Assembly: GCF_945285465.1 (NCBI RefSeq)
Contig: NZ_CALYQK010000003.1
Coordinates: 1-64,000, forward strand
Reading direction: 5' to 3'
DNA: 64,000 nucleotides
Source: an uncultured Bartonella sp.
GTDB lineage: Bacteria > Pseudomonadota > Alphaproteobacteria > Rhizobiales > Rhizobiaceae
Below the pieces are notes generated by a model. It had not been told where the DNA came from and did not search any database. It was given only the letters and a program-made list of their open reading frames with translations. The translations under genes were made by a program, and so were the position numbers. Positions 42,393 to 46,970 of this stretch are shown here, in pieces. Every line of letters starts with the position of its first letter. Positions within the stretch are counted from its first letter, which is position 1.

Positions 42393-42424
42393 TGAAAAAA
42401 ACAAGGGGCAGACGCCCCTTTTGG
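42393..42424 (-). terminator. Rho-independent terminator for the 47-aa sORF
   Basis: Minus strand AAGGGGC-GTCT-GCCCCTT then GTTTTTTT; perfect 7-bp stem. Confidence 0.75.
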
Positions 42425-42452
42425 TTGGAAAATGCCAAATTACTCAACAAAT

Positions 42453-42596
42453 TCATTTCGTTGCGTTATGAACACCATAGCCGTCTTTGCTGACGAATTC
42501 GTTGTTACCTGCACCCACCGAACCGATACCAGCAGCCACAAGAATGAATGTGAAAAGGGCTGTGACAGTCACCAGAGTGGCTCTCTTTGCAGACAT
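42453..42596 (-). CDS. 47-aa small secreted/membrane protein, uncharacterised
   Basis: MSAKRATLVTVTALFTFILVAAGIGSVGAGNNEFVSKDGYGVHNATK; GGAG 7 nt upstream of ATG; signal-peptide-like N-terminus; terminator downstream. Confidence 0.75.
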   Translation of the reverse strand: MSAKRATLVTVTALFTFILVAAGIGSVGAGNNEFVSKDGYGVHNATK

Positions 42597-42780
42597 TTTA
42601 TTCTCCGATCGAATGCAATTTTTTTGGTTATCAACGTGATTGATGTCATATAGCGAAGTAATTTTTTTTCAACAAACGCATGACGTTTTATCAGTGTTTT
42701 TCACATTTAAGGTAAAGAAAAATTAAATCTGTTGCACTTTAGCGACGAATGGTGCAGCTGAAAGCCACCTGGTGCTTTTG

Positions 42781-43859: not shown

Positions 43860-45946
43860 GAGTCATGTCCCTTGAATATCGCTGGCAAAACAGCTTTATA
43901 CGGTTTGGCATTAGCAAACAAATTTTGCCGCAAGCCGGTCAGGGCAAACGAAATTTTTTGGTGGTCTTCTGAATCGGGAAGGGCGGTAATCCAGTTCAAA
44001 GCATTATCGATTGTTTCAAGCAATTCTTTTCCATCCGGTTCGTCCGTGTTCTTTGCCTTGACGCGATAATAAAATGCCAGTTCGTCTAAAAGATTGCCGA
44101 TATTTTGCCGGCTTGTCGGGCCTTGTTGTTCTCTCAAAAATTGTAGTTCGATCGTATCGAGACCGACGCGGATATCTTTGAGAATGTCGCTCTGGCGCAC
44201 GCGCGAGTGCAGTGGAATGAGTGCATAACGCGGTGCAATCAGGCCGTAACGATCAAGCATACGATGAAGAAGCTCGTTATAGGTCTGGGTATTTGCCGGA
44301 TTTTCGGCGACATCAACTATATCGAGCCATGAAGCACGAATAAGGCGCAAGGCGCTCCATTCGGCACCGACAGAGCGCACAACACTCGCAGTAACAGCGG
44401 CGATGACAAAACCCAAAATCAATGCTGTGTTGATCTAAATGAAAATCAAGAAATCACCAATCATACGTGACTGCAATAACAACAGGTTGGGAAGATTGAC
44501 AGTCATTGTCATGCCCATGGCGAATTTGGAAGGAATAGCCATCATAATGCCGGCCGGAATAAGTACCAGTGCCAGACAAAGCATCAAGGGTAGATAGCCG
44601 TCAATGAAGGGAAGAATAGCAAATTGCAAAACAAAAGCAATAACAAGGACAATCAGAATTTGTTTGAGCATGCCGCGAATTGCCGGCACGGGGTCGTCTT
44701 TTGTGGCAAACAGACTGCTAAAAATCCCCGTCATCATGGCAGCGGTGCCACCTTGTGTCCATTCGGTCATACGCCACAAGGTGACGGTTATAAAAATGGC
44801 AAGAATGGCTGAAAGAGCGGAAAGAAAGGCAATGCCAAAGTCATAATGGGTTGAACGCACTTCTCCCAGAAAGTCGAAACGGTGCCAGCGCAATTTGTGT
44901 TGTGTGCCGTTTACAATATCGTTTCGCAAATGCAGACAATCCGAATAAATTTGCATAATATCGACAAGACGCATGGTCAAGTTGCGCGATATAAGATCGA
45001 TCCATTGTTTGGAGTGTTCCAAGTCTTCCAGTATGGACTGTTTTAGATTTTTTATATGCGAGATTTCGTTTGGCTGCATTGGCTCGCAGGTTTGTAGCCA
45101 TGCCGTTGTTTTTTCGATCAATTCATCGAGTTTGCTGCTATTGCTTTTGCCCCCACGTTCATCCCTGATCAAGTTGTTGCGCTGGTTAACAAGGTCGCTA
45201 CAGCTTGCCACCATCGGCAGGAGCGAAACCATGCGGTTTTGCAATGTGCGCATGGCATTGACGGTCGAGCGCAATGTCGATGCGTCATAAGTGACATGGG
45301 TGGTAAAGCTTCGCAAGTCCACCGCATCAATGGCGAGCTTCTGGCGGCTTTCCAATGCTTCTTCAGTGCTGCCTTGGCCGTTAATATTGATAATTGCAAG
45401 GTCGGCACTGTTTTTCAGCCATTTATCAATCCGGTTTGCCAGAACCGGCCCGGCATGGCGCGGAAAAATGAGACGCCCAACCATAGCGGCACAAATAATT
45501 CCGACACTGATTTCTTCAGCACGGCTTGTTGCATAATCAAAAACATCTTGCGGTTTATCGACAATCATAAAAGCGATAATACCGGCACTATAACCGGCAA
45601 GCATCGACACATAGGCGCGCGGTGTCCGGTCGAGCACACTAATAAAAAGACACCCGCCAAGCCATAAGGCCAAAGCCAGAGTTGTGAGCTCCGGTGACGG
45701 AATGAAAAGCGGTAACATAATGACAGTTGCCATTCCGCCGATCGCCGTACCAAGTAAACGGTAGAAAGCTTTGGAGGTGAGCGCGCCCGACAGGGGGTGG
45801 GCAACGATATAGACGGCTGTCATCGTCCAATAAGGATTGGGAAGGTCGCATAAAAAGGCTATATAGAGAGCCAGAGCCGCCGCGCCAAAAGTTTTTAGCG
45901 AGAAGACAACATCCCAAACTGTCGGTTGTTTTTCAACAATTGTCAT
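43856..45946 (-). pseudogene. FUSC-family transporter (AaeB-like), interrupted by in-frame TAG at 44435-44437
   Basis: MTIVEKQPTVWDVVFSLKTFGAAALALYIAFLCDLPNPYWTMTAVYIVAHP...GDFLIFI*INTALILGFVIAAVTASVVRSVGAEWSALRLIRAS...; same frame on both sides of the stop. Confidence 0.85.
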
Positions 45947-46217
45947 CAAATTTTTCAAACAAACACATAAAAGCGGGCAAAAAGATAAGATCTTTCTGCC
46001 CGGATTAACCACAACAAAGCTATTTTCTTGGCAAAATGCCAATTTGAACGCAAAGAGAATGGATACTTCCCTTCCATATCTAGAATTATTCCGGACGAGT
46101 TTCCAATCACCTTTTCGTAAAAACAGACTACGAATTTTGATTATATCGCTCTATTGTTTTGCTTGATTTTAAAGAACGTCTTCGAACGAGATGAAGGACA
46201 GAAGGAATAATAGTTTG

Positions 46218-46970
46218 ATGCGCGCCAATTATAAACTGCAACGGCTTTTTCTAAGTGAACCGTTGTCACTTGGTCAGGAAATTACGTTATCGGAACCACA
46301 GTCGCATTATCTGAAAAATGTTTTGCGCATGAAAGAGGGTGAAAGTCTGCTTGTGTTTAATGGGAGGGATGGCGAATGGCGTGGCGCAATTACTGCAATA
46401 AAAAAGAAAACCGTTTTTGTGCAAATCGTTGCCAAAGAGCGCGAACAACCCGAACCAACAGATTTGATTTATTGTTTTGCACCGTTAAAACATGCCCGTC
46501 TGGATTACATGGTTCAAAAAGCGGTCGAAATGGGTGCATCGGTTTTGCAGCCGGTGATGACACGTTTTACCCAGGCAACACGTCTGAATGAAGAACGGAT
46601 GCGGGCCAACATTATCGAGGCCTGTGAACAATGCGGTGTTTTGTCATTGGCCGATCTTCAAGCACCCCTTGCGCTACCCGACCTGTTACAACAATGGCAG
46701 CCCGCTCGTCATCTCATTTTTTGTGACGAGGCGGCAGATACCCAAAACCCGCTTGAAATCTTGAAAAAAATGTCATCGGCACCACTTGGTGTTCTTATTG
46801 GTCCGGAAGGTGGTTTCAGTGATGAAGAACGCACCATGCTTGGACAATTTTCTTTTGTTCATGCCATTCCGCTGGGGCCGCGAATTTTGCGTGCCGATAC
46901 GGCTGCAGTTGCCGCGCTGGCCGTTATCAATGCCACCCTTGGTGACTGGTGTGATAAAACGGGTACTTGA
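46218..46970 (+). CDS. rsmE: 16S rRNA (uracil-N3)-methyltransferase
   Basis: LQRLFLSEPLSLGQEITLSEPQSHYLKNVLRMKEGE; IGPEGGFSDEERTMLG; LGPRILRADTAAVAALAV. Confidence 0.95.
   Translation: MRANYKLQRLFLSEPLSLGQEITLSEPQSHYLKNVLRMKEGESLLVFNGRDGEWRGAITAIKKKTVFVQIVAKEREQPEPTDLIYCFAPLKHARLDYMVQKAVEMGASVLQPVMTRFTQATRLNEERMRANIIEACEQCGVLSLADLQAPLALPDLLQQWQPARHLIFCDEAADTQNPLEILKKMSSAPLGVLIGPEGGFSDEERTMLGQFSFVHAIPLGPRILRADTAAVAALAVINATLGDWCDKTGT

Follow-up and report, generated by a model that had tools for sequence, protein, structure and literature searches.

Introduction

MgrB, a protein of 47 amino acids (aa), is an inner-membrane inhibitor of PhoQ in enterobacteria. In Brucella abortus, cytochrome bd depends on another very small protein, CydX, according to work cited in PMC10117765. 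Here we report on a gene for a 47-aa protein of an uncultured Bartonella sp. (assembly GCF_945285465.1), which lies on the minus strand of the first 64,000 nucleotides (nt) of contig NZ_CALYQK010000003.1, hereafter the window. The gene had been proposed from the DNA sequence of the window (the original prediction). Comparison with related genomes indicates that it is a genuine core gene, coding, present in single copy and orthologous by synteny, and that its product is a member of an undescribed family of 43-52 aa in the Rhizobiaceae as defined by GTDB.

The protein resembles MgrB in its length, its short positive N-terminus, its one helix and a short conserved tail that is predicted to be periplasmic. 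However, no profile gave any sequence relation between the two, and whereas the tail of MgrB uses cysteine, that of the present family has an invariant DGYG[IV] motif. We rejected a homologue of MgrB on the grounds that the family shows no conserved cysteine among the 109 distinct sequences compared and no Pfam match above cut-off.

Results

Translation of the open reading frame (ORF; Table 1) gives exactly the 47 residues that had been predicted. There is one copy in its own genome, and the ORF was found in 36/36 other genomes of the same genus; a check for frame-breaking indels showed no in-frame stop in any of these orthologues. All 36 start with ATG and most have a recognisable Shine-Dalgarno sequence. 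In the window this is GGAG, as first described, with a spacer of 6 nt rather than 7. Pairwise differences within the genus are 0.24, 0.10 and 0.46 at the first, second and third codon positions, respectively, revealing a synonymous bias. In close pairs of orthologues the nonsynonymous divergence (dN ~0.01-0.10) is well below the synonymous divergence (dS 0.17-1.0). Over all pairs in the genus the ratio of nonsynonymous to synonymous differences (pN/pS) is 0.33, with 0.07 in codons 23-29 (GIGSVGA) and 38-42 (DGYGI) and 0.69 in the linker. Moreover, antisense frames that overlap the ORF are broken at differing points among relatives. Given its presence throughout the genus, the synonymous bias and the matches at fixed synteny across the family described below, conservation is far above chance, and the original prediction of a real small gene is borne out.

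To describe the distribution of the gene, one profile built from sequences of the genus and one widened profile were run on 398 genomes sampled from the GTDB family of the window. The genus profile gave matches in 51/398 genomes at E<=0.01. The widened profile found 178/398 genomes and 56/109 genera, which include numerous soil-dwelling and symbiotic bacteria, nearly always with one match per genome, and within the genus Brucella the small gene is found in 35/35 genomes. In an order-wide sample, strong matches came only from the same GTDB family and none outside it was convincing. We inspected the rsmE locus in 23 genomes of the family without a profile match and found no equivalent of the small gene there in 22; therefore its absence at that locus is real in most. 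The remaining genome (L188) holds a diverged member with DGYGV, adjoining rsmE. The gene is missing from a 1.1 Mb genome (G338) of one genus (g128) but retained in another of 1.5 Mb (G439), where no rsmE was found close by. One locus titled Bacillus subtilis SK6B4 (JAHREI010000001.1) is Pseudochrobactrum-like and is probably mislabelled or contaminated.

The window protein has no matches in Pfam or NCBIfam, and eight members of the family have none or fall far below cut-off. A profile search of the family against the PDB and a search of a plasmid collection for the gene returned no match, and a text search of the literature for peptides of the family found no describing paper. In some genomes the gene may carry a hypothetical-protein annotation in RefSeq.

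The 109 sequences share a common plan, consisting of M[ST]xxxA, a hydrophobic helix of 19-24 residues that ends in GI-x-[SAT]-[VA]-x-A, a short linker and then DGYG[IV] near the C-terminus. This last motif begins after 36-37 residues in 105/109 and is followed by five residues in the window protein. Its D (column 41), its Y (column 43) and its I/V are present in 109/109 and each G in 108/109; other conserved positions are A6 (106), G23 (99) and A29 (98). The membrane or secretory N-terminus that had been predicted was found throughout, as a segment of transmembrane-grade hydrophobicity: the Kyte-Doolittle-type mean over 19 residues (KD19) exceeds 1.6 in 109/109 and is 2.24 from residue 6 in the window protein. 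AlphaFold predicts a helix at residues 3-22, with a predicted local distance difference test (pLDDT) score of 82-90 over residues 1-20. The mean charge in the family is +1.3 at residues 2-7 and -0.9 in the tail, which suggests an N-in/C-out topology.

In the window, rsmE lies upstream of the small gene and divergent to it. The same position, upstream on the opposite strand at a distance of 0.2-5.2 kb, was found in 108/108 loci with rsmE in the fetched stretch, some of which represent the same genome fetched twice. Therefore, with rsmE(-gshA) upstream and divergent in every case, the small genes form one vertically inherited orthologue group. Divergent rsmE-gshA is also the only constant neighbour. 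The other flank varies between AsmA-like, aldo/keto reductase, metallophosphatase-like and GntR-like genes. A FUSC-DUF1656-HlyD pump at this flank is limited to genomes of the Brucella group and to the clade of the window; neighbour names, except those matched to references of the window, come from a reading of their sequences. An in-frame TAG interrupts the FUSC gene of the window, which stands upstream of the small gene, and reflects either a pseudogene or a sequencing error. The counterparts of this FUSC gene in three relatives (L057-L059) are intact, with 695-697 aa.

The GC hairpin originally described about 30 bp past the stop (AAGGGGC-GTCT-GCCCCTT) is present, starting 32 nt past it, and is followed by one G and then the seven T that had been reported. 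The pattern alone is at chance level, with two found in 2 kb against 2.5 expected. A stable hairpin with a T-run is nevertheless seen 44-66 nt past the stop in 7/7 close-clade sequences, among them that of the window, and the stem sequences mostly differ between members. Among more remote members of the genus the hairpin is not apparent. Sequences L001-L008 have CTATAT 55-64 nt before the ATG, a position where L009-L037 all lack it. We agree with the earlier proposal of an independent transcription unit, because rsmE-gshA, itself divergent, is the only constant neighbour and because the close clade has kept both the terminator and the -10-like CTATAT.

In the larger Bartonella clade (L009-L030), most sequences have GGAAC-N16-GATT ~100 nt before the ATG, close to the consensus for promoters of the general-stress sigma factor EcfG. 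The EcfG-type GGAAC-N16-CGTT in 8/40 Mesorhizobium-like upstream regions is suggestive of such a promoter there, but its position varies. A strongly conserved block, TTCAGTTGCGGGTAACTTTTTTCGGGTGTAACTGA, lies ~130 nt before the ATG in the Brucella group (L143-L163, L171), and in Brucella GTAAC-N11-GTAAC is found at about -130 in 22/24. In Mesorhizobium-like genomes, G-x-AAC-N6-GTAAC lies 50-57 nt before the ATG in 28/40, against 0.15 expected in shuffles; as the direct repeat G[AC]AAC-N6-GTAAC it stands ~52 nt before the ATG in L197-L235. In 351 kb of Mesorhizobium-like loci there are 30 copies, and each precedes the small gene, one of them (in L202) having been assigned after correction of the start. 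A genome-wide search for the strict repeat in 14 genomes gave 12 sites, 9 of them at the small gene, and therefore no wider regulon emerged. The repeat appears to be a nearly gene-specific, putative regulatory site. A period of 11 nt, as seen here, is characteristic of regulators of the OmpR type. Of candidate binders, CenR, with the motif TGA-N8-TGA (PMC9275681), and FeuP, with the candidate site TTCA-N7-TTCA (PMC3616915), were rejected, as neither motif fits the repeat.

Table 1. Positions in the window of the small gene, its associated elements and two neighbouring genes
Feature	Position	Strand	Remarks
Small protein gene, 47 aa	42453..42596	minus	ATG 42596-42594, TGA 42455-42453; orthologues in relatives
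Hydrophobic helix, ~residues 6-29	42510..42581	minus	Ends in GIGSVGA (23-29), pN/pS 0.07; KD19 2.24; AlphaFold
DGYGV motif, residues 38-42	42471..42485	minus	Family signature, near-invariant in 109 sequences; pN/pS 0.07
Shine-Dalgarno sequence GGAG	42603..42606	minus	Same place in 7 close-clade sequences
Intrinsic terminator (7-bp stem, GTCT loop, T-run)	42393..42420	minus	Hairpin at 42420-42403; recurs across close clade
Candidate sigma-70 promoter TTGTTG-N16-CTATAT	42648..42675	minus	CTATAT 57 nt before ATG
Upstream block TGCAAC...TTAA, possible regulator site	42707..42736	minus	Near-invariant in 7-member close clade
FUSC pump gene	46042-43856	minus	In-frame TAG at 44435-44437
rsmE	46191-46970	plus

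Discussion

The explanation that we favour, with about even confidence, is that these are small inner-membrane proteins whose conserved tail is periplasmic and docks on a partner in the envelope. The gene would be transcribed alone from its own promoter. The short positive N-terminus of the protein would stay in the cytoplasm, a single helix would span the inner membrane and a tail of 17-18 residues would lie in the periplasm. There the protein may dock, by its constrained helix boundary GI-x-[SAT]-[VA]-x-A together with the tail motif DGYG[IV], on a partner that faces the periplasm and belongs to an envelope complex or sensor, and would tune it, as do other membrane proteins of fewer than 50 aa. 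Several points weigh against this. What speaks for docking and tuning is motif conservation, there is no operon partner pointing to a target, and AlphaFold models the tail at low confidence (pLDDT ~50). Moreover, the (-3,-1) rule of signal peptidase holds at residues 27/29 in 100/109 sequences, and therefore the tail may be released.

This last observation is central to the main competing explanation, possible though less probable, in which the N-terminus is a Sec signal peptide that signal peptidase I cuts after residue 29 and the resulting DGYG[IV] peptide of 17-18 aa is active in the periplasm or extracellularly. The frequent A29, the absence of proline at +1 and a variable hydrophobic core set against a constrained core end and tail motif would all suit cleavage. 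However, the hydrophobic stretch is longer than expected of a signal peptide, the conservation of G23 and I24 exceeds the requirements of a cleavage site, and a free peptide of 17 residues without cysteine is unlikely to fold and could be degraded. A bolder proposal, which we regard as rather unlikely, is that a conserved periplasmic or secreted DGYG peptide, under a nearly gene-specific regulatory site of its own, would serve as an envelope signal or regulator throughout a lineage that extends from rhizobia of the soil to the intracellular Brucella and Bartonella. As a special case of docking, the protein may be an accessory subunit of a specific complex in respiration or transport, comparable to CydX or CcoM. 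Its size, single helix and core, single-copy gene would agree with this, and CydX and other small oxidase subunits are likewise tiny single-helix membrane proteins that are easily missed in annotation. However, CydX is encoded in the cyd operon, whereas the DGYG gene stands alone and divergent from rsmE. In the loci read no oxidase gene adjoins it, which led us to reject a CydX-type oxidase subunit by location, and most genera lack the FUSC/HlyD pump beside it, this neighbour being limited to some Bartonella and Brucella. We consider an accessory subunit improbable.

Size and a single hydrophobic helix are also typical of type I toxins, membrane peptides under the control of an antisense RNA. 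Such toxins are usually patchy and multicopy, whereas this gene is single copy, syntenic and vertically inherited across 56 genera, with the strongest constraint on the helix end and the polar tail motif; a toxin-like role is thus very doubtful. Least credible of all is a non-coding RNA or leader with an incidental ORF, even though the promoter-like site and the terminator would bracket a predicted transcript of ~250 nt. Substitution is biased to third positions, the orthologues have no in-frame stop, the protein is conserved across the same 56 genera and Rfam gave nothing near the gathering score for the region. A non-coding RNA as the principal explanation is already refuted by these data, while a dual-function RNA is possible.

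In summary, we found no family model or paper that describes these small proteins. Since such a protein is easily deleted or tagged, a role in the envelope is directly testable. In two host-associated genera no sampled genome lacks the gene, which occurs in more than 50 genera overall and is therefore probably important.
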